Source: Crossaster papposus (taxonomy: Eukaryota > Echinodermata > Asteroidea > Velatida > Solasteridae). Taken from it: a DNA stretch of 64,000 nt. Location of the stretch: NCBI GenBank assembly GCA_037893245.1, contig JBAIAA010000110.1, positions 1,116,001 to 1,180,000 on the forward strand, given 5' to 3'. Each line of letters opens with the position of its first letter. The stretch's first letter is position 1. A program made the position numbers and the translations under genes. Shown one piece after another: positions 12,639 to 63,820 of this stretch. Below the pieces are notes generated by a model. The model searched no databases and was not told the DNA's origin. It saw only the letters and a program-made list of their open reading frames with translations.

Positions 12639-14960
12639 GTTTTCTGACAAAGCGAGTTTTACACCATCTTACATATCATTACTGGAATAAATTATAATAA
12701 ATACAAAAGTACGTGATAACTATTGAAGTCACGCAAACATTATATTAGGCAACCCTCAGAAGTTAGAAGTTAATATAAAGCAATAGATAAGGTGTACAAA
12801 TTTAAAAATATGATATGTTGTTTTTTCCCGTAAAAATTGATAGCAGCAGTGTTGTATACAGCACAGCAAGCAAATTCGCTACACATTGCTAACTAAAACC
12901 AAATTCAAATTGACCTTGAATTATGTTACATAGTAGAATTATAATTTATATGACTAACATAATTTATAACACTCAACATTATATGACTCACAGAAGGTAT
13001 GCCGAAAGGGCTGATACATTTTGCAAATGATAATACACAATCATTGATTTTATCTTTACAAAAATGTACATTGTATCCCAAAGATGACATGGAACATAGT
13101 AATTGCAGCGTGCCATGGAGGTATTTTCTACCTCAACGATTACAGTATTTTGTTATCAAAGTACGCGGTATGGGTGCTAGAGTAATGGGGAAAAGCGAAT
13201 ACATGTATTCCATATTATACATTTAGGGCAGTGTAGCCATCTCGATTTGACGACAGAATGCGTCCACTCATTGTGCGCATATCGAGTGTCAGGAACTGAA
13301 AACCGTTTGATACAAAAACAATGATTTTTTCCCCTAAGCTGCCGCGTGCCTCCGCTTTGGAAACGCCCTTATAGTGACTAATAATTATGATTAGTATCTA
13401 CAGCATTCAATACCTTTGATAGATATACCAAAAAATAACCTTGACCTTGGTAGGGATACAAGCAAATTAATATGGAAACTGGAGAGGCATGTCTGCCATG
13501 GAAATTTGAATTCAACACAGCACGCTCATAATTAGCACACGCAATATTATTGAGCTTTATCTCATCACTTCTATAACGAGTACTAAATATAAAAGCTAGC
13601 ATTTTTAGAACTAACTAAAATAACAAATAATATATTTTCGTAGCTACAGCTACTTCATGTATGTATTATGGCTACATATACATGTATATCGTTGTTCTTT
13701 GTTATACATTCAACTCCGGATATGTGCTTTTGTCATATAAAATATGGAAAGAAAAAACGAATGCTTGCGAGTTCTACTTCCGCAACCGGGCAGAACAAAA
13801 GCACACACCTCATCAAACACAGCTGCAATGCCAAGGATCTGCTGAGGGGAGTTTCTTTTGGATAACCCTCTCCATGAAACATTTAGAGAGTACCAAAAGC
13901 ACCGTCCTAAATGAACCTTTTTTTCTGGATACATTGTCTTGGCCTTAAAAATTTAATTTAACGCATTATGTATGTTGCTTACTTACCAGATGTGGTTTCT
14001 CTACAGACTGGAAATTAACCGCCTTGATGAACATTCCCAAACACTACCCTGCACATGTACAGCGCTTTAATTGTTACCCTGCAAAAACAAAGTTAATTAA
14101 ATTTGTGACTTGAATTAGGCAAAATGAAAAATTCAGAACTGGCTTTAAGCCAATTACGCCAATAAATGCTTACATTATATAACAGCCTCTCGTGCAATTT
14201 GTATTGTTGATTAATTAGTGAGAAAAACATTGAAAAATGTAGCAATACAGAAATATAACCGAATGTAATAATCATCATACAGATGCTATTAACAAAGCAC
14301 AATGTGTGCAAATTATATTTGCACATTTTTATAAAAAAATCTATATAAAGTTATGCAAGTTTATACATACAGTGCATCTTGGATATAAACCGTTTATTTT
14401 CCCTGTGTTTCAAACACAAAAGCTTAAATTTAAATTGCAATTTTTCTAGCAATACGAATAACAACTCAAATATGGCTCACAAACAATCCATGGTAGTCTA
14501 CCATTTAATACATTAAAAAAAACTCATTTAAAATGTAATTTTCTGAAACTTAGACATGTGAACTTCTTTGATCTTACCCCCGACTTTTAGCTATGGGCAT
14601 GTCCAAAAATAGGGGGTCAATTTTTGTTGTCCTTGTTACGTCTGACATAATTGGCTTTTTTAGGACAAATTTTGGATGCCTTTTATATCCAATAGTCATA
14701 ACATAAAGCAATTTACCTTAAACAAATTTTAAAGTTAAATTTACTGACACTTACTGACACTTAAGTACACAGGTCATGCGTAACAGGGATACCAACAAAT
14801 GTCACACTTTTAGATTACTTATTTATTAACAAACCCTAATGTATTTTGCTTTGCAACACTTTCATCATGAACAAAATTCTGCAGCTCATTTTAAGCTGAA
14901 GCAACACCAATCATAAACACAAAGACTGTGTCATGAGCTTCAATATTAGCTACACATAAA

Positions 14961-17125: not shown

Positions 17126-17158
17126 GGTTATCCATGGAGGATTCCTCCATGGGTTATC
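17126..17158. mobile_element. CATGGAG hairpin element 1 with 7-bp target duplication
   Basis: A 19-base foldback (17133-17151: CATGGAGG, ATT loop, CCTCCATG) is flanked directly on both sides by GGTTATC (17126-17132 and 17152-17158). This is the arrangement expected of a tiny insertion with a target-site duplication. The same design is seen at 17769, 54183 and 62245, and as a half unit at 17691. Confidence 0.7.
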
Positions 17159-17690
17159 AGATGTTATAAACATTTCCATTTCATTTGAAGGTAGAATATC
17201 ATGTTGTCATCACATATATACAAAAACATTGCAAAATGAAAAAAAGGTGAATATGTGTAATATTATTAAAGGAAATACATGTAACAGAAAGGCAAAGATG
17301 AAAATAATGCATTTTATTGCAAAAGTTAAACTGCTTTTCTCCCTTGTCTGAAAATATTTGTGGAATTGCAATTTGGTCAATAAATTATACATAACTAACT
17401 TCAAAGCATGACAATAACATTTCAAAGTTTTCATTTGTATTTTAGCTGTTAGAAGTACAACCCCTAAATAAAGTAAAACATCTTCTCTGAGACTAGTTAG
17501 TAAATACAAATCAAATGATAATGTTTTCACCTTGAAAAAATACATTCAAATAAAAAATAAAAATGCAAATGTCCTTAAGGGTAGGATACACCTCCACAGT
17601 ATATTGGCCTGCTAATCTGTGAAACTTATGTAAACTGTTGTTCGTGTTTAGCTTTACCGTTAAACTTACAATAAATGCAGTGCAGTTTCC

Positions 17691-17717
17691 ATTCAACCAT
17701 GGAGGAAGGAATTCAAC
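17691..17717. mobile_element. CATGGAGG half element with 7-bp target duplication
   Basis: The 13 bases at 17698-17710 (CATGGAGGAAGGA) represent only the left arm of the hairpin family. They are flanked by perfect ATTCAAC direct repeats (17691-17697 and 17711-17717). It may be a truncated or decayed member. Confidence 0.55.
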
Positions 17718-17768
17718 ACTGACATCACATTGGCTGATCACACTCCGTTAACAATGATCGATCAGTGC

Positions 17769-17802
17769 ATCAAACCATGGAGCTATAGCTCCATGATCAA
17801 AC
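17769..17802. mobile_element. CATGGAG hairpin element 2 with 7-bp target duplication
   Basis: The 20-base perfect palindrome at 17776-17795 (CATGGAGCTA and its complement) is flanked by ATCAAAC on both sides (17769-17775 and 17796-17802). It has the same termini and flanking-repeat length as the element at 17126 but a different centre. Confidence 0.7.
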
Positions 17803-46531: not shown

Positions 46532-49289
46532 GGTTTATGGTGGGTTGGCTAGTTGGATTAGAGTTCCGCGACCCGGGAACAAAATGCAACTAAACAAAAT
46601 CTCGATGGTACTTTATTTTTTAAAGGTAACATGTCATAAAATACCTGACAATTGTATGTTTTGGATTGTTTATAGTTCGTGTTGGACTTCGGTTGGTCCC
46701 ACCGCCTGTACTGAGCGCTAGAAAGCGCTGATGCTCTTTGAGCTATGATTGGATTGCGTACAATTCAAAAGGTCATAGTATGATACCCAGAATGTCGTGA
46801 GTTTCCTTTGCAGAAACCTGTGAAGCCGCATCAGCGCTTCCCCGCACGGTCTAGTATATGGGCAGTGGGCCTGGGACTAAGCGAAATGTTGAACGAGCGG
46901 TTGCAACCGTATACTACCCCAACCATGGAGGAAAAAGTACCCTAATAACAACGTTGTACAACTGAAAGAAATCGTCCTTCGAGGATTCTGTGTTCCCTTT
47001 GTTCTCTTTTGTGTTTCGATCCTCCTTCGTAATACGATACAAGAGCACATTGTGTAAACACCTTCCATTGTATAACTCCTATTGTTCCTATTTTGCTTGT
47101 ACTTTGTGGTCGATTAGAGATATTACTTTTAAATTATCAGTTATAGCAGGGTTTCGTTTCAAACGCGTTTGGTATCCTAATTAAGCGCTTTCCAGAACGG
47201 ACGTATCCCTTTAATGGACACACAGACCCTCTCAATTCGGGACGTGTTCACTGTTTACCAAACTGAGGGTCAAGTGCGTGATGTCAGTTACGTGAAAACA
47301 ATTAGGGCTTCAAATTTAGCAGGTAGATTGACAATAAGATAGGGCTTTAAAGTTATATTATATTCTTAAAAAATGACAATGTTTTGTGATAAAATACAAA
47401 TAAACTGGTGTTTTATCGGGTAAATAAAACCTTTGACCGCTGATCACACAAAACGAAAAAGAAACAACCCCGCTCCTTTCACGGTCACAGCTTGTACCAT
47501 GTTTACGCACTTGAAATTTTAGCTCAGTCATGTTAGTAGGGCGGATCCGGGTTGATTAAGGGGTTATACATTCAGTTTCGGTTCCACAATACCAAACAAT
47601 ATTTTATGAAAACTATTAGACAATCAATTAAACATTAGCCCGTTAATTTTTGAAAATTACATCAAAAGCAAAGCAATTATGCTCGGCATTATAAAAACAC
47701 ACTTAGTGTGACGATTTAAATCCCACAATTTCAGACTCTTCGTGTTTTGTTTTGTCTCTATTTGACGATGGTTTTCTCTGTCGAATATTAGGGTTGTATA
47801 CTGGCACAAACAGAACATTTAATGCAAAATGTTTGAGCCCATTGCACGCACCGAAACATCGGTCGAACAAGATTGTTTTCCCTGATACTGGTTTCCTGTT
47901 AGAATCGAAAACACACACCAAAAAACTCAAAATACATACTAGCTATAATAGTTTTTAAATTTAAATTACTAATACAAACAAAGCAGACTGAACTAGAAAT
48001 AACCGATGTTAAAGCCACGTTGAAACGGTGGGGTTATTAGAATTAGGTATCTTATGCCCAAATAGGTATCTTATTGTGCGGAAAATGGTATCCGTATTGA
48101 CGAAATCTGACATTGAAAGTAGCTTCGAAATACACGGTACCCGTGAAGGCCCATAGTTTTGAAGGCCCAGACGCGACACCTAAAATATTAGGCAAACGAT
48201 TTTCTCCAAATACGATTAGGCTTATGTAGTATCCACCGATCCAACACTTTATAGGTTAGCTGGTATACACTCTATACTTGAGACTTGGTTGCGATCCCAC
48301 AAACACAAATTATCCTACAAACTTTCAAATACATTTTACAATTAATATGCTTACCACCGTTGAGCGCTTCTCTGCTTGATGACGAGATCAAACTGGTAGC
48401 GTAAAAGTTTGAACCGTACTTATATACCATGCACTGTGAGAGTATGGCCAATTGGTACCACGCTGTACTCGTATACAACGATAAGGGGATCAAATAAAAA
48501 GATACTTACCGGTACTGTTTAAAAAAAAAAAAATATTAAATTAGTTTTTTTTCTGAATGGGACTGACGAAACGAGTTGATCCAAAGATAGGTGTAACTTC
48601 CTTCTGTGCGAAAAGCTTGTTTTTTGTTTGTTATGACGCAAAGGTTGTGAATTATTATAAACGTCTGTATAAAGGACATTATTACGAAACAAAACATACA
48701 TTAGCTTGTCCGTCAAGTAAGACTGTATACTTTGGTAATAGTTCATAAATAGGGGTCCAAAAAGTGATTTTTATTTTGTTTGGTGTCCTGATTACACCTG
48801 ACCTGTGAAATTGACTATGCAAGTGACGTCATTGAAATTGACTTCAAACTTGTCTTATTTGATTTGCCTGTATAATGCTTTATGTTGTCACTTTTGGAGA
48901 TAGAAGGCATCAAAGCAAACAAATCAAATTCATCTACAGTGGCAAATTTTAAGCGAATTAGCTTTCTTCCAGACTGCTGTCGTTTCTTAGGTAGTCATAT
49001 TAGATGCCAGACGTTCATGTAGTCGTGAACCACATAACGATCGAGGCTCGATATTGTGTTTTCCCTTATTCCTATGTTATACCCAATCCCCATTGCTTTG
49101 CGCTTGCACCGTCGATCGAGGACCGAATTTTTCCATTCATACCGCCGACCGAGGGGCTTTTGTTTCGTATTGTGTCTCACCCCTCGGTGGTGCAAGAGCA
49201 AACAGTCGTGTTCACATCTGACATTTTAATGTTTAACATATTCAACGTGCAAGTTATGTCAACGGTTAAAGGTTGATATTGGTGCGTCA
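46532..49289. other. Intergenic region, no gene seen
   Basis: This stretch lies between the 5' end of the M13 gene and the 3' end of the first cytidine deaminase. It is AT-rich with only chance short frames. A solo CATGGAGG at about 46924-46931 lacks flanking direct repeats. Confidence 0.5.
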
Positions 49290-52124
<2,835 letters not shown>

Positions 52125-52996
52125 CGTAATTTCAGTTGTCCAAAACAGGACTCTATACCTCGAGTAATCGCTACCACAGTCTTTAAAATGTAACAGCACT
52201 AACTGGGCTGGACTTATTAGGCAACTAGTTTTCGTAGCTATTATAGGGCCTCTTTTGATTTGAATGAACTGTATTATAGAGCTGTTCCTTGCTCTATGGT
52301 ATTATGTAGCACGAGATGATACAGTATACAGAAATACGTCGCACCGCCACAGTACACTCTGCATTGCATTGTGTTATCTCAGGGCGCCCGGGTCAAGGCC
52401 AGACTAGACTACTGTTGGTTATATTATTGTCAATGTATTCGAATGAATTTGAAATCTTTGTACATGTACCTCAAAGTAATATACTCCCAACATTTTCCTA
52501 ACGTTTCTAAATTTCTCAAGCGTCCTAATCAAATTGTGATTGTTGTTTTGTAAACTTGTATTAAACAAAATACAAACCCCTTTCACTCAGCAACATGTTT
52601 ATTTCACAGAAAATACCAACAGACTGTAGGTTTTATTGACTTTCGTGCTATACAATTTAATATAAAAATATAAAGAAGGGTGCTAATTAATCAGTATTAT
52701 TTTGTGGGAAGTTTTAAATTTTGACATCACGGTAACTGGATTGGTGTAGGCGGGGGGGGGGGGGGGGGTTAAAGCGCTCATTTCCTTCTTATTCCTCCAT
52801 GCTCACACCGTGCATGCATCGCATTTTATTGGACAGAGAAAGCCATGAAAAGTAATGCACGCGACCATGGAGGAATAAGAGACCGCAATGTCTGTATTCA
52901 GCTCAGAGGAAGATAACCCCGATTCTAATCTAAAGGAAGGATCGCTCGTTTGTCTTCACCCCCCCTCCCCGGCCCACCCAACCAAGACAGGTCGCC
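52125..52996. other. Gap between the two cytidine deaminase genes
   Basis: It contains the promoter side of copy 1 and the 3' flank of copy 2. Minus-strand AATAAA signals (TTTATT on the given strand) are at 52598-52603 and 52825-52830, and a long G run is at 52751-52768. No extra exon is seen. Confidence 0.45.
52788..52879. repeat. Hairpin with CTTATTCCTCCATG arms
   Basis: CTTATTCCTCCATG (52788-52801) and CATGGAGGAATAAG (52866-52879) form a perfect 14-base stem around a 64-base loop. The arms contain the same CATGGAGG core as the tiny hairpin elements but point inward, and no flanking 7-bp repeat is seen. It lies about 120 bases downstream of the CDA copy 2 stop codon. Confidence 0.6.
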
Positions 52997-54958
<1,962 letters not shown>

Positions 54959-56752: not shown

Positions 56753-59700
56753 CTACTCCACCATGTCCTTCATGTTGATTGGGGTCCCTTTCCGATAGGA
56801 CTGTTCACAAGCCTCTGCGATGACTGTTGCCATGACAGTGTCTTGCCGAGAGACTTCAATGTGATGGTCAAGACCTAAAAAAACGGGATAGAAAAAAATT
56901 AAATTTGCATGTGAGCGTTGGAGTGTTTTGCAGTAAGTGTTTTATAATAATACAAATACAAATACAAATAATAATAATATAAGAGGGCTACTTATCGATA
57001 CTGGCAGCTGAGAAGCTGAATTGTTAAGGGTGCAGCTACAACGTGTTCGAGTTGATGGCACAGCCGCCATACGACACTATATCTGACCACGGAGCACAGC
57101 CAGAGACTGCATTTTGCTTACAGTCTCTGTTCATCAGGAACAAAACCATTTCTGCAGCAGCTCGAGATCAGCGCAATTGAGTCTCTACCTTCACAGGCAC
57201 CCATTTATACTCCTGGGTGGCGAGAAGCAATTGCAGTAAAGTGTCTTGCCCAAGAACACAATCACCTTGTTCCCGTCAGGATTTAAACCTGAATAAGATT
57301 AAAACTGCTGCAAATTTAAACCTGTGTACCATCGCACACGAATCAAATATCGTAACCATTACTTTACAATAAAATAACAGAACAGTATATTCAAATATTC
57401 GGTTGATGATCGAGTATTCTGTATATTTTGGACAGCCGTAAAGAGGCTCAGTCAACTACTTTTTTCTCCACTACCTAATTGGTAATCAATGAAGTAGTCA
57501 AGCTCGTTGGCGTAGGCTTCTGCATAGCGCTGGGGGAAGGAATGAGATATTGGCTCGGCAGTAGCACCCTGGTTACCAAGATGACCAACTACGTTGATCT
57601 GATGGCTGCAATTGCGCGTCTCCAACATTCCACCCGAACCGAAAACCTGTCGCAAAGGACGAGTACAAATCAGAGAGCTGTATTAAATTACTAGAGCGCT
57701 AACTCCTAATTTTTCCGTGTTTTACTCATCAGTGTTGTATATTCCTTTTTACCGCTAAACCTCCACTCCACCACCAAGTGGTGACGAAAAGAGCTGCTAC
57801 TGGGAAAGAGATGTGACGTACCTCGATGCGTTGATCATATCCATAGCTGGAATCTCGACTCAGGTCGATGACGGCAATGGTTCCGCTAGCAAACTTCATT
57901 GTAATGGCCACCTGGTCCACGTCGTCCATTTCGGCCAGCTCTTGACGGAAGCAGTGGGCCTGGGTGTAGACCACCTCTGGGAACTGACCCAGGATCCAGC
58001 ATATCACGTCGATGTCGTGGACAGCGCAATCATGGAATATGCCACCTGCACAAAAGATTATTGGGGATGTCCTAAAATAATTGCCTTATAATAATTATAT
58101 ATTTTTGGAAAGGGGGATGGGGAGGAGGGTGGGGGGGGGGGGGACGACTGGGTTACCGGACACCTATGATACAAGGGGTGCTGTTCACGATACAAAATGT
58201 ACTTCTACTTCAAACTTGCACACTTTAATACCTCATTAAACCACTACACCAATGGAACCTCCCCCCCCCCCCCCCCCCACACTTCTCATGTCTATTCTTT
58301 CCGGACTATGTATTTATTGTATTTATTCTGGACATGTATTCAAAAGCTCATGCACATCCACTGTTTTTCTTTTAGATTATTCTGGGTAGTTATTGTTATT
58401 ATTAATTCTTTCTGGTAATGAAACCAAATATCCCTCAAAATATCCTTAGGCACTGTAGCCCATAAGCCTGAAGAAACCTACAGTAAGAAGACAACGAGAA
58501 GAAAGTACAGTTTTCAAGGTGGGAAGAAAACCCCAGAAGAATATCCTGGAGAAAACACAAGGAATCAGGCAGGGACTAAAAACCCAATCCACATATTGGC
58601 CCAGGCCGGATTCGAACCCGGATCACATAGCAGTGGAAGGCGAGGAAAGAAAAGCTACGCCAACCTGACTCCCCTATCACATAATGGTGATCATTAGCAA
58701 ATACGGCAGCGAGTGGAGCTGAATTTTACCTGATTCCTTGAAATATGCCAGAGGTGGAAAGGGGCTGTCCCGAGAACATGTTTTGATGGACTGAACTTGG
58801 CCCACCGCACCGTTCTTGACACGCTGCTGGAGATGTCGTATGGAGGGATCATACCGCCTGTTGAAAAAAATTAAAATAAAGGAAGAATAAGCTTAGACTT
58901 TGAATGAACCAAACCTTGAGCCTTTTTATTTTGGAGGGAGCTATTAGAGCTTTCCGTTTTCGCATACTTTAGTATTCGATGACACATATCTGCAACTGCA
59001 TTAAACCAAATATTTGGATGTTTGAAATGGGCAGATGCAACTTCGTACCGTGCCGGGCGCGCAGGTCAGAAGTAACAATAAGGTTGTTTCACGTTCCAGT
59101 TGCGCATGCTCAGTAGAGCGCCCTCTGTAGGCCTACTACATGTAGGAAGAGGGGAACACCCATATAAACACGCTATCATCCGGGTAAGTTGGGTACCCCT
59201 TTTTGCGCTGAATCCAAGATGGCCGCGGAACGTGAAACAACCTTATTTACATGCAGCAACCAATATAGTTTGCTAAACTGTTTTGCAGGAAACAATTTTT
59301 TTTTCTTTTGCAGGAAACAATTTTTTATTGTCAGTGGCTTTGACCTGCCAATAGAATGGAACAATAAATCACTGTCAACATAAAATTTACCTTCAAACAA
59401 CAAAAGTGGCATCTGACAATAAAGTTCCGCACTTTGTCAATACAATAACACCACAGTTGCGAGTAGGCCCTATACCTTTACAGTTGAATTGAAAAGTGTA
59501 AAATTAAAGGTCACCTGTTGAATGCGCAGTATAACATCTTGCCATGTTTCTCGGCTAGATCGTAGCACGACTTAGTGGAACTGAGCTGTCTGGCAATGGG
59601 TTTCTCACAGAAGACTGCTTTACCTATGCAAGGGGAGAAAAAAGGAAGAGAAAAAGGTCATTCTGTTGCCATCTCACATATGTGACCGGCTCTACAAAAA

Positions 59701-62099
59701 GATATGACGTGTTTAAATATTGATTACTTCCTTTGAGTTCAAATTACAAAACTGAGAAAACAGGCTTTGAAATAGCCGGCTCTGTTGTACTACAACAGAA
59801 CGATGCACACAAAATGGTAGTTTTTTCCACTTTATTCATCAAAATCAATATTTCTTTGAATGAAACCTGTAACTGTAGGTATTAAAGATGTCATTCATGA
59901 CAAAAAATGAAAATCTAATTTTGATGAAATGTTTACCCTCTCAACGTTGAGCGGGCCATTACATGATAGTGCACAGCACGACATAATTTTTGTAGAGCCG
60001 GTCACATATTGGTCACTCAAGTCAACCAAAGTTTTCACAAAACCTTCCACGGTCACCGAGTTATATTTGGCTCTTTGTTTTGGTGGAGTTCATGTAGAAT
60101 TACTTGCTTGGTTCAAGCTCAGTGCAAAAGTGCCCGTTAACCCTAACCCCCTAGGCCCATTCGGTGTATCGTACCTTTAATGTTGCCATGACAACAATAT
60201 ATTTTTTTTACCAGCTGCCAATGCTTTCTTGACGATGTCTTCATGGGTGTGGGTGAATGTGCAAACAATGACTGCATCGATACTGGAAAGCAAAAAAAAC
60301 ACTAATTAGTAGGTGGTTGCATCTAAAAAAAATAATTAATTATCACCAAAAATAAATTAGTTCTGGCTAATCAAAACACCAAATATGCCACAAGAGGGTA
60401 CTTTTTCCTTTATATCCTGAAGGTCAATCAGTGCAAAAATGTTGAAACGACATGAATCTATATTATTGTAGCTGGGACACAGAAACATTTCCAATTTTGT
60501 TAAGAAATTTTCTTGACTCTTCATAGATTGTTCTACACAAAGTGGCATGAGCAGCCATGGGCCTATATTAACGAGTGAGCCATAATAATCTTCAATTTTT
60601 TTACTTGCGGATAGAAATGACCAAAAGTTAATTAAAAATTAATACCACTTCCAGTTCCAGTCTTCTCTTATGAATAATTTTAATTTTGTGTTAAAGCCAC
60701 TTTTAAAAAAATATTGAAAAATGAAAGTTAGGAAAGAATGATGAGAAGCCTCTTAGGCCACGAGAATGAAAGTTATAGATTTGCGTCCACCGCCCGCATG
60801 CCTGAAAAGCTACCGCACATAAATTTTCATTATTTAACATTTTTTAATTAAAAAAAATAAATAAATAAATAACAAAATTCATTTGATTACATGAATTCTG
60901 TTCAAAATCACCCCTTAAAAAGGTAACGGAAAGATGATCTATGAATAGCTATGAACGCAGTATCATCATTTTGCCAATATCTAGCGGCGGCGGTGGGATT
61001 ATTGTTGAAATATTAGGGCTAAACAATAAAGAAGTTTATTGACATTGCATTGATATTGATCATGATGGCATGATCGAAATGGGAAATTTTACGATTCATC
61101 ACTGCGCCTCCCGACTCCTCTGTATTTATTCCATATTGAAAATCATGCTTACATGTGCGTGTTTGTGTATTACCTGTTCACACAGTACATGGGTGCATAT
61201 ATGTATAAACTCTGGCTACGCCACTGTTTGTATATTATGTAAAACAACAGTCATTAAAAAATAATGAATAATGAAAAAAAGCCTCATGTGTTTTCAAAAA
61301 AGTCCGGACACAAATCTATAACTTTTAATCTCGTGGCCTTGGTGAGATGTGTGGTTCTGTTTGTGTATTACCTGTTCACACAGTACATGGGTGCATATGT
61401 ATAAACTCTGGCTACGCCACTGCTTGTATATGTAAAACAACAGTCATTAAAAAATAATGAATAATGTAAAAAAGCCTCATGCGTTTTCAAAAAAGTCCGG
61501 ACACAAATCTATAACTTTCATTCTCGTGGCCTTAGTGAGATGTGTGGTTCTGAAAGGAACCGGAGAAAACTCAACGTTTCGGACAGTATGCTCTGCCCGT
61601 CGTCGAGTAGAATGCAGAAATAGTCTGGTAGCATCCCATTTAACACTTTAAAATTTATAAAATACATTCAAGGAACACGACCAAAATGGCTTTATTATCG
61701 ACCTGACGGTCAAATAAATTCAGAGTACAGAGTATTATTAAGGCCTGCCGGTGTCTATCTTTTTTCCCTTTTCACCCCCAGTTTTGCAGGGTGAAGACAC
61801 CTTGATAAACCAAAAATGTCTCACCTGTGATCCTCATAGACCTTCTTAGATTCAGCAGCGGTCAGAACCTTGCATCCTTCCTCGACGTGATCGAAGAGCC
61901 ACCGACCCATGACCTCCTCGGCCCGGTCACGACTCTCTTCCACCACGTACCGAATCCGCGCCCGGGGATTCTGAACCAAGTTGCCAAAATGGATTGCGCC
62001 GGCACGTCCCAAGCCGAAGATTGCAAAGGAGACTTTCTTCGTCTTTCTTGGCCTTTCAACAATTTCACTGTTGTTGTTTACGTTGTTCTGAAGCGCCAT
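56753..62099 (-). CDS. Gfo/Idh/MocA-family NAD(P)-dependent oxidoreductase (inositol 2-dehydrogenase-like), 7 exons
   Basis: Exons, 5' to 3': 62099-61825, 60282-60212, 59623-59515, 58857-58730, 58045-57822, 57646-57475, 56874-56753; 1101 nt, 366 aa. The start is the ATG at 62097-62099 (MALQNNVNNN); the open frame continues a little further without an ATG. The Rossmann nucleotide-binding loop is GLGRAG (residues 29-34). The EKP motif (122-124), whose Lys is catalytic in the family, and the HDCAVHDID segment (199-207) with the Asp/His of the active site are present. The substrate is not identifiable. Bacterial homologues act on inositol and other polyols or sugars, and animal members are poorly characterised. 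A second, partial copy of exons 1-2 lies upstream at 62879-63787 with matching phases. Confidence 0.9.
56945..57310 (-). repeat. SINE-like element in a Gfo/Idh intron
   Basis: Read on the minus strand, a decayed B box (GGTTTAAATCCTG, about 57278-57290) is followed by TTGTGTTCTTGGGCAAGACACTTTA, a longer body and an ATTATTATTATTTGTATTTG tail at about 56946-56981. The GGGCAAG segment is shared with the element at 38430-38640. Confidence 0.5.
58440..58670. repeat. tRNA-like repeat remnant
   Basis: GGCCGGATTCGAACCCGGATC at about 58605-58625 resembles the T-arm/B-box complement of tRNA-derived repeats. It is preceded by a purine-rich body (GGGAAGAAAACCCCAGAAG). It lies in an intron of the oxidoreductase gene. 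No intact tRNA fold was found. Confidence 0.35.
60756..61531. repeat. Inverted repeat enclosing an intronic segment
   Basis: A 33-base arm at 60756-60788 is the reverse complement of 61499-61531 with one mismatch, and of 61306-61338 with a few. The arms contain GGCCACGAGA / TCTCGTGGCC. The layout suggests a foldback element whose right end was later duplicated in tandem. It lies in intron 1 of the oxidoreductase gene. Confidence 0.65.
61161..61556. repeat. Tandem duplication of about 195 bp
   Basis: Unit 1 (61161-61358) and unit 2 (61359 to about 61553) share GTTTGTGTATTACCTG, CTCTGGCTACGCCACTG and AAAAAGTCCGGACACAAATC in the same order, with a few substitutions and small deletions. The CTGGCTACGCCACTG segment recalls transposon ends of the GGCGTAGCCAG type. 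Confidence 0.8.
61556..61640 (-). mobile_element. Possible Penelope-like retroelement fragment with hammerhead-like motif
   Basis: On the minus strand, GGGCAG and CTGTCC form a 6-base stem around AGCATA, followed immediately by GAAAC. The preceding CGACGA partly matches the CUGANGA box of hammerhead ribozymes. Similar GACGGGCAGA...CCGAAACGT sequences are associated with Penelope-like elements in animals. The core is imperfect here, so cleavage activity is doubtful. Confidence 0.35.
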
Positions 62100-62244
62100 T
62101 TTGCAATCCACAGGTCTATCTGTCGCTACTAGTACTTCATAAGTTCAGTCAGTTGCATTTTCTCCTTCCCTTTCCTGGCCTTCCGCTCCCGGGCCACCGG
62201 AAGCGCCGCGCGCTGTATACATGTACATGTAGTACAATAGACGA

Positions 62245-62303
62245 ATCCAACCATGGAGGCTGTCATCGGCCTCCATGATCGATGATCCCATGATCGATCC
62301 AAC
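62245..62303. mobile_element. CATGGAGG hairpin element 4 with 7-bp target duplication and an empty-site counterpart
   Basis: A 45-base insert (62252-62296) begins with the hairpin CATGGAGGC...GCCTCCATG and ends GATCCCATGATCG. It is flanked by ATCCAAC on both sides (62245-62251 and 62297-62303). The homologous repeat at 55655-55700 has a single ATCCAAC (55663-55669) and no insert. Confidence 0.75.
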
Positions 62304-62531
62304 AAAGGAATTTGTTTCATTGTCATTGGCGGCGCTGTATCAATTTCAGGGGCCAGGCAACGCTAATTTATAATAGCGATAGGACAACTTACTGCCCCCC
62401 TACAATGTCCGTATGTACGATTGAATTCGTCTTTAGTAATTTATTACGGGCTCCATTTAGAGGTGATTGAATTATTTTAATGAAATGGCGTTTGTTCGTA
62501 AGAGCATGGAGGTCGGAAACATTTACAATGT

Positions 62532-63787
62532 AGAAAAGGTCATTTTGTTGCCATCTCACATATTGGTCACTCAAGTCAACCAAAGTTCTCACAAAACCTT
62601 CCACGGTCACAGAGTAATATTTGGCTCTTTGTTATAGGGGAGTTTATGTAGAATGACCCGTTTAAAGCTGGTTCAAGCACAGTGCAAAAGTGCCTGTTAA
62701 CCCTAACCCCCTAGGCTATTTTGGCTAAGACCCGTTCCTCAATCCTGCAAAATCCTCAAACTGCCACCATGCAAAAATTGTATTCATCCTCAATCTTCCA
62801 GAATCCTCTTCCAATCACTGATATTATGTAAAACAAGTCTATTTAATGTAGCCACGACAACAATTTGGTTTATTTTACCAGCTGCCAATGCTTTCTTGAC
62901 GATGTCTTCATGGGTGTAGGTGAATGTGCAAACAATGACTGCATCAATACTGGAAAGAAAAAAAGCCACTTTAAATCCAGTCAATCATCTTTAAAAAAAA
63001 ACATCTGCAAATATCATTATCATGAACCCCTTGACACCAGGCAGGACTATGGCCTTGGCAGGTATCTTTCAAAAAATCAGAACTTAAAATCAGAACTTAA
63101 AATCTCTATTAGAGCACCAATTTTAACATTACATGATAAACTAACATTTGAGAAAACAAAATGTACATTTTAAGCGTACTTATTAATTTAAGGCCAGAGG
63201 TCATTTTGCTACATGTTGTTTCTGTGCTAAAATATGAAGATATGACTTTGACCATTCATACTATAGCTTCAAAATGAGCTTTGTAGGTGCTATGTATTTG
63301 GAAAGAATAGAGTTCGGAGGTCATGCAAATTAGTGGGCAGTCATGTTACAATTAACGCGTATCTAAACAAACTAATTCAATTACCATAAAAAATAATCAG
63401 TTCTGGCTATTAAATAAACACTAAATGAATGAATAAGGCAAGTCCGAGTAACTGGACCCTGGTTATCGGTTGTTTTTTTACATTTAGACATGATCTGGCG
63501 ATCAGATATGTCAAAATGTTAAAAAAGCGATAACTAGGGTTCAGTATAAACTGGCGGCAAATAAAAATATATTCAGAGTAAGCCTATCTATCGTTTTTCC
63601 CTTTTCACCCCCAGTTTTGCACGGTGAAGACACCTTGATAAACCAAAAATGTCCCACCTGTGATCCTCGTAGACCTTCTTGGATTCTGCAGCGCTCAGAA
63701 CCTTACATCCTTCCTCGACGTGATCGAAGAGCAGCCGACCCATGACCTCCTCGGCCCGATCACGACTAGCTTCCACCACGTACCGAC
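62532..63787 (-). pseudogene. Partial duplicate of the Gfo/Idh oxidoreductase (exon 1 part and exon 2)
   Basis: Exon 2' (62949-62879) is 71 nt like the original and encodes IDAVIVCTFTYTHEDIVKKALAAG (His to Tyr). Exon 1' (from about 63787 to 63658) encodes VVEASRDRAEEVMGRLLFDH..KVYEDHR and keeps its donor. Homology in exon 1' stops abruptly at 63787, where unrelated sequence and a 27-base G run begin, so the Rossmann-loop half is absent. Non-coding flanks are duplicated too (62564-62735 matches 60002-60165; 63587-63658 matches 61757-61825). No duplicate of exons 3-7 is present. It is either a truncated duplicate or an alternative set of first exons spliced to exon 3, since the phases allow it. 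Confidence 0.7.
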
Positions 63788-63820
63788 CGTAACAGGCCCG
63801 TACACAGGGAAGGGAGAGAG

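Follow-up and report, generated by a model that had tools for sequence, protein, structure and literature searches.

CATGGAG palindromes flanked by 7-bp repeats in the genome of Crossaster papposus are very probably excision footprints of P-superfamily transposons

Results

Five minute inserts beginning with CATGGAG

How do inserts of 13 to 26 nucleotides, beginning alike and consisting of little more than a hairpin, come to lie between perfect 7-bp direct repeats? The window, by which we mean the whole 64,000-nucleotide stretch analysed (G000:C110:1116001-1180000 of the 1.02-Gb assembly), contains four palindromes of the form CATGGAG...CTCCATG, together with a half unit (Table 1). An earlier note on this DNA took such inserts for ultra-short mobile elements. 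We conclude that they are very probably footprints (scars) left by the excision of P-superfamily cut-and-paste DNA transposons.

The structure given in the earlier note is borne out: all five inserts start with CATGGAG, four form hairpins of 19-26 nt and the one at 17698 is a 13-nt half unit. GGTTATC, ATTCAAC and ATCAAAC directly flank the three inserts at 17133, 17698 and 17776, as the note had it. Of the two further inserts that it listed, the one at 54190 is adjoined by ATACAAC on both sides, whereas at 62252 the right ATCCAAC follows after 19 additional bases. Perfect repeats therefore directly adjoin three palindromes and the half unit, and in the fifth insert the right copy is displaced by 19 bp. 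We infer that these 19 bases, ATCGATGATCCCATGATCG, are filler added in repair. The minus-strand stub at 52784-52801 is probably a one-ended scar; its arm type, CATGGAGGAATAAGAAGG, has 1866 copies in the genome and its reversed control none.

Several other features of the window were noted. The sequence CATGGAGGTATTTTCTACCTC at 13114-13134 resembles a GTAGGAAA-type scar lacking the right CATG, and a 7-bp repeat was not seen around it. More CATGGAGG starts resembling single stubs lie at 46924, 52019, 52866 and 62505 (+ strand), and CATGGAGGAA occurs seven times over both strands (0.1-0.5 expected). A gene region is duplicated in tandem over 59650-63790: the stretches at 62556-62970 and 63587-63786 repeat 60002-60303 and 61754-61953 at 88-94% identity. 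An insertion of about 320 bp at 59682-60001 has inverted ends, CCGGCTCTACAAAAA lying close to the left one and the complement of this sequence close to the right one, and TCACATAT flanks it on both sides. Read by eye, the tandem paralogue at 62534-62657 lacks it, so that it is a putative non-autonomous transposon whose empty site is preserved in the paralogue.

Table 1. Coordinates of the inserts, their flanking repeats and the related elements. Positions without a contig or locus name are those of the window; "scar" denotes the probable interpretation.
Feature	Position	Strand	Evidence or remark
Target duplication GGTTATC, left copy	17126-17132	+	sequence
Scar CATGGAGGATTCCTCCATG, 19 nt; CATGGAGGAA-type end stubs, short-overlap joint	17133-17151	+	identical 19-mer at G000:C5:53993
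Target duplication GGTTATC, right copy	17152-17158	+	sequence
Target duplication ATTCAAC, left copy	17691-17697	+	sequence
One-ended scar CATGGAGGAAGGA; lone 13-nt stub	17698-17710	+	CATGGAGGAAGGAA arm type known from whole palindromes elsewhere
Target duplication ATTCAAC, right copy	17711-17717	+	sequence
Target duplication ATCAAAC, left copy	17769-17775	+	sequence
Scar CATGGAGCTATAGCTCCATG, 20 nt; read as two CATGGAGCTA(TGAAG) stubs, TA overlap	17776-17795	+	
Target duplication ATCAAAC, right copy	17796-17802	+	sequence
Full 18-nt stub CATGGAGGAATAAGAAGG, exact arm-type match	52784-52801	-	no 7-bp repeat demonstrated
Target duplication ATACAAC, left copy	54183-54189	+	single ATAGAAC (3) or GTAGAAC (1) in four empty copies
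Scar CATGGAGGTGTTTCCTACCTCCATG, 25 nt; arm type CATGGAGGTAGGAAAC, GGT overlap	54190-54214	+	empty sites
Target duplication ATACAAC, right copy	54215-54221	+	sequence
Target duplication ATCCAAC, left copy	62245-62251	+	sequence
Complex scar: CATGGAGG...CCTCCATG (62252-62277, 26 nt), then 19 bases (62278-62296)	62252-62296	+	
Target duplication ATCCAAC, right copy	62297-62303	+	sequence
CATGGAGAAATAAGACAC-family palindrome, 36 nt; two 18-nt stubs, exact 18+18	C35:2809576-2809611		
CATGGAGAAATAAGACAC-family palindrome, 37 nt; two 18-nt stubs	C1:705699-705735		
CATGGAGAAATAAGACAC-family palindrome, 38 nt; two 18-nt stubs	C138:140338-140375		
Intact P element, 4920 bp	L056:823-5742		29-bp identical terminal repeats CAAAGATACTAGAAGGGGAAGATAGGACA; duplication GTAGAAC

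The inserts are not chance palindromes

We scanned the window for inserts of at most 80 nt that lie between direct repeats and end in inverted repeats of 6 nt or more, using four Markov shuffles as controls. Repeats of 7 bp gave three matches, all of them CATGGAG, and none in the four shuffles; the other repeat lengths gave five (one being the 17133 insert again) against 1.5 per shuffle. In the whole genome, CATGGAGN{0,30}CTCCATG matched 5620 times, with nested matches possibly counted repeatedly, and the reversed pattern 96 times. We read the flanks of 29 inserts at 24 fetched loci, the first four listed (L005-L008) and twenty picked for listed palindromes (L009-L028). The 7-bp repeat was perfect in 19 inserts, had one mismatch in four and two or more in six, a tally in which a nested pair in L014 counts twice and L005 and L006 share an identical insert and left flank. 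The six palindromes without a good repeat speak against the scar reading. Scanning the twenty palindrome-selected loci at 7 bp gave 20 matches, 16 of them CATGGAG, versus one in two shuffles; the counts at 6 bp (398) and 8 bp (337), where tandem arrays are suspected, were left unused. A search of IMG/VR with AACCATGGAGN{0,24}CTCCATGAT, treated as a chance control, gave four loci, none with a 7-bp repeat.

An empty site shows that the insertion created the repeat

The region 54100-54300 belongs to a dispersed repeat with at least 40 other matches (the best 40 of 73 candidates). Query positions 3-201 are covered by 34 of these 40, and 29 of the 34 are exactly 167 nt long (the other five 159-169 nt), that is, 32 nt shorter than the 199 nt queried, which equals the 25-nt insert plus one 7-bp repeat copy. 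All four fetched junctions read TATGTTCT-(A/G)TAGAAC-TCTGTAG, with a single repeat copy and no insert. The 7-bp repeat at 54190 was thus created by insertion, and the earlier note was right in taking the 7-bp repeats for target duplications. The dispersed repeat itself abounds in TTCTATAGAA-like units.

Taken with the shuffled and reversed-pattern controls, the empty sites make it vanishingly unlikely that we are looking at palindromes formed by chance or at conserved regulatory motifs instead of insertions, an idea that would suit the position of three of the five between the Kelch and BCAS2 genes (the genes of the window being animal according to Pfam). Drosophila P elements prefer promoters, and we tentatively liken to this preference both that position and the clustering of the listed palindromes, of which four of 45 neighbouring pairs lie less than 2 kb apart (0.6 expected). 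A target preference, suspected from the five inserts, is present among 22 scars; their symmetrised target lies near GTYNRAC, with which seven intact elements agree. The motif ATNNAAC first proposed for it was dropped as a small-sample effect.

Inserts differ in their joints rather than by point changes

We wondered whether the inserts could be mobile in their own right, as hairpins of 13-26 bp mobilised by a transposase for which CATGGAG is almost the whole recognition sequence. Beyond this heptamer the arms fall into several types, GTAGGAAAC, GAATAAGAAGG, AAATAAGACAC, CAATAAACTAG, CTATGAAG and GAAGGAA. By prefix matches of short stretches to these hand-set strings, the insert at 54190 was assigned to GTAGGAAAC, 17776 to CTATGAAG, 17133 to GAA... 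and 17698 to GAAGGAA; that at 62252 retains just CATGGAGG on each side. The two arms of one insert mostly agree and the arms of different window inserts differ, as expected if the arms come from opposite ends of the same element.

Among 47 inserts (from 50 listed places), 40 were distinct and not one pair was a single substitution apart. What varies instead is the point at which constant stubs meet, and the filler; short overlaps and fillers are present at the joints of the 47, an observation made without a chance expectation. Six insert strings occur two to three times, and the junction at 54190 (CATGGAGGTGTTTCCTACCTCCATG) recurs at at least three other places among the matches listed. Such identical inserts at separate places, together with the perfect 7-bp duplications, would suit ultra-short mobile elements; identical junctions are also expected where tails share a short overlap. 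The diversity of the inserts is unlike that of copies of a master, and one-ended forms exist (17698 and the GAATAAGAAGG type). With the arm-length limit and the second family described below, this makes ultra-short mobile elements very unlikely, and we have given up this part of the earlier proposal.

Intact elements continue where the scars stop

The 18-mer CATGGAGAAATAAGACAC has 391 copies in the genome. In 108 of them it continues exactly as AGGGAGTT; the remaining 283 belong either to scars or to ends that have diverged, counted here together. Among 100 places listed, six pairs of CATGGAGAAATAAGACAC on opposite strands enclose elements of 776-2814 bp; AGGGAGTT follows in ten of their twelve ends and has one substitution in the other two. 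Five of the six elements have perfect 7-bp duplications (GTTATAC, CTTAATG, GTACAAG, GTTGGAC and ATCTAAC), and the sixth, on C213, has ATTATCA at the right and, six bases off, at the left. From 100 of the 108 26-mer ends, at least 17 element-sized pairs of 652-2999 bp were obtained. A 100-base element end is 97-100% identical at the best 40 of 153 candidate places, which suggests recent movement.

While the terminal repeat of this family is identical across 26 nt in most copies read, its scars end near 18 nt. In the three palindromes on C35, C1 and C138 (Table 1), 0-2 bases separate the two 18-nt stubs. Exact 18+18 junctions are found in three arm families (C35:2809576-2809611, C21:2200753-2200788 and C527:370048-370083), in two of which, CATGGAGAAATAAGACAC and CAAAGATACT, the intact end is known to run past the stub. 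It is on families with a known intact end that the limit rests, the other arm consensus strings being themselves 14-20 nt long. In the GAATAAGAAGG type, 17-nt one-ended stubs directly abut a target copy in L031 and L035. Across 20 fetched CATGGAGGAATAAGAAGG/GAATAAGAAGG-type sites, an exact 7-bp repeat was present in four within the stretch read, and AA continues the 18-mer in ten, an extension not accounted for by a cut at exactly 18 nt.

These results bear on a further alternative, namely that the inserts are extreme MITEs, internally deleted elements already reduced to their ends before inserting. Intact elements of non-autonomous size (0.65-3 kb) do share the same ends. Internal deletion, however, predicts any arm length, whereas the scars end near 18 nt despite a 26-nt identical repeat. 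Nor do the inserts look like MITEs in other respects: one-ended forms have no second end, and the 47 inserts lack the pattern of copies derived from a master by point changes. We consider this alternative, too, to be highly improbable.

Intact parents were sought for other arm types. By eye, none was found for the CATGGAGGAATAAGAAGG/GAATAAGAAGG type among the 20 fetched sites, and no close opposite pair for CATGGAGGTAGGAAACAC / GTAGGAAACAC among 100 of 192 places listed. Within the window there was no convincing long CATGG...CCATG element of up to 6 kb with exact 6-8-bp duplications, and CATGGAGGAA-like right ends with at most one repeat mismatch gave no convincing full-length element. That no intact parent was found in these searches for the arm types of the window counts against the scar reading.

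A transposase-bearing P family leaves the same kind of scar

For PF21787, the N-terminal RNase H domain of P-type/TNP-like transposases, the genome gave at least 131 matches among the 150 scored of 172 candidates, and for PF21788 it gave 76. One intact P element (L056; Table 1) has an open frame with PF21787, PF21788, PF21789 and PF12017. A second copy, in L058, is flanked by AAAAAAC, so that 7-bp duplications are found in both copies read. This second family, the CAAAGATACT element, carries a P transposase, and its terminal repeat continues past the stub.

We sought scars of the second family as a prediction. The pattern CAAAGATACTN{0,30}AGTATCTTTG matched at nine places in the genome, its reversed control at none. 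Perfect 7-bp repeats flank six of the seven that were fetched from these nine places (five distinct loci, four of them perfect), and one reads GTAACAA-CAAAGATACTAGAAGGGG-CCCCTTCTAGTATCTTTG-GTAACAA, exactly 18+18. A transposase-bearing P family of this genome thus leaves the same kind of scar, in far smaller number.

The search for a CATGGAG element that carries its own transposase

The earlier note had called for a longer autonomous element with CATGGAG ends. Longer elements with 7-bp duplications were indeed found; the genome searches yielded none with a P transposase, which weighs against the scar reading. The nearest of 138 transposase places lies 27 kb from an intact end (100 of the 108 ends listed). 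Around the transposases at L029/L030, L055, L057, L059, L060, L068 and L069 (5.4-6 kb read for each), we found no 7-bp duplications that would pair CATGGAG terminal repeats. Within a 2.8-kb CATGGAG element on C213, 601 bases (L082) had no similarity to three P transposases beyond chance level; this segment (C213:8750-9350) contains a run of GACAGCCATTTT-like units. Two P transposase copies, L029:634-3005 and L030:619-2997, are 98% identical and have their boundaries in common; terminal repeats and target duplications were not found for them in the stretches read.

That the CATGGAG ends were linked to no transposase in these searches would fit scars of another superfamily that also duplicates 7 bp. 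To our knowledge, superfamilies other than P leave just a few bases of their ends. Moreover, the scars resemble those of the transposase-bearing P family in this genome, and the target near GTYNRAC resembles the GTANTAC of Galileo, a member of the P superfamily, as given in the available text of PMC4168063. An origin outside the P superfamily therefore appears improbable, and we infer that the CATGGAG elements owed their mobility to a P transposase.

Discussion

The inserts are best explained as excision footprints of P-type elements. The excess of genomic matches over the control, the perfect target duplications and the empty sites speak for this explanation, as do the intact elements with such ends, the arms ending near 18 nt in both families with known intact ends, and the scars of the transposase-bearing family. 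An element with terminal repeats starting CATGGAG would insert and duplicate 7 bp of target. Its transposase would later excise it by a staggered break, cutting one strand at the boundary and the other about 18 nt inside, so that each flank would retain a single-stranded tail of at most about 18 nt of terminal repeat. Being inverted repeats, the two tails could be end-joined via short overlaps, trimming or filler synthesis, and the product would be a palindrome or a lone stub between both target copies.

From sequence alone, thousands of candidate excision products with their target copies could reveal where an uncharacterised transposase cuts and how the germline of a non-model animal tends to join ends. 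A further lesson is that a very short palindrome between perfect target copies should first be tested as a possible scar; only then should it be called a mobile element. It is possible, though we regard it as doubtful, that in this animal lineage P-type elements are removed so efficiently, and the breaks end-joined so regularly, that scars far outnumber elements in several families. If so, P elements could be subject to a purge that is sustained or even regulated, and the scars would preserve thousands of germline end-joining products as a natural archive.

Neither genome-wide P excision scars nor CATGGAG elements were described in the titles and opening lines of abstracts in the open-access literature searched. 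The closest known counterparts are Drosophila P excision products, in which 17-nt tails lie between 8-bp target copies (PMC2895639, Table 1); the part of PMC10983969 available to us terms such 17-nt staggered cleavage atypical. We scored 63 isolates of that Table 1 by a criterion of our own, excluding three with flanking deletions. Both target copies were kept in all 63; terminal inverted repeats of at least 6 nt were present in 40, and the other 23 were shorter, one-ended or nearly empty (PMC2895639). As far as the accessible part of PMC2895639 goes, the Drosophila scars share with ours both target copies, a palindrome of two stubs or a lone stub, short overlaps, inserted bases and ends starting CATG. 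They differ in having 8-bp copies and 17-nt tails where we find 7 bp and about 18 nt, and they come from an assay whereas thousands are found here in one assembly. Filler between stub and target, as at 62278-62296, is absent from the Drosophila rows read in PMC2895639, which counts against our reading.

Galileo, a P-superfamily element of Drosophila, also makes mostly 7-bp duplications, at a palindromic GTANTAC (here GTYNRAC), in a text (PMC4168063) whose available part does not use the word "footprint"; it differs by its unusually long terminal repeats (PMC3688188, in the portion available). Zebrafish Pdre2 / THAP9 provides, as here, a P-type transposase family in a non-insect animal. According to the accessible text of PMC10983969, it has 13-bp terminal repeats and 8-bp duplications, and the zebrafish enzyme in fly cells leaves larger flanking deletions after excision. 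The mechanism that we propose is already known from Drosophila assays; what stands out here is the number of scars, which also seem to outnumber the intact elements in those families that we looked at.
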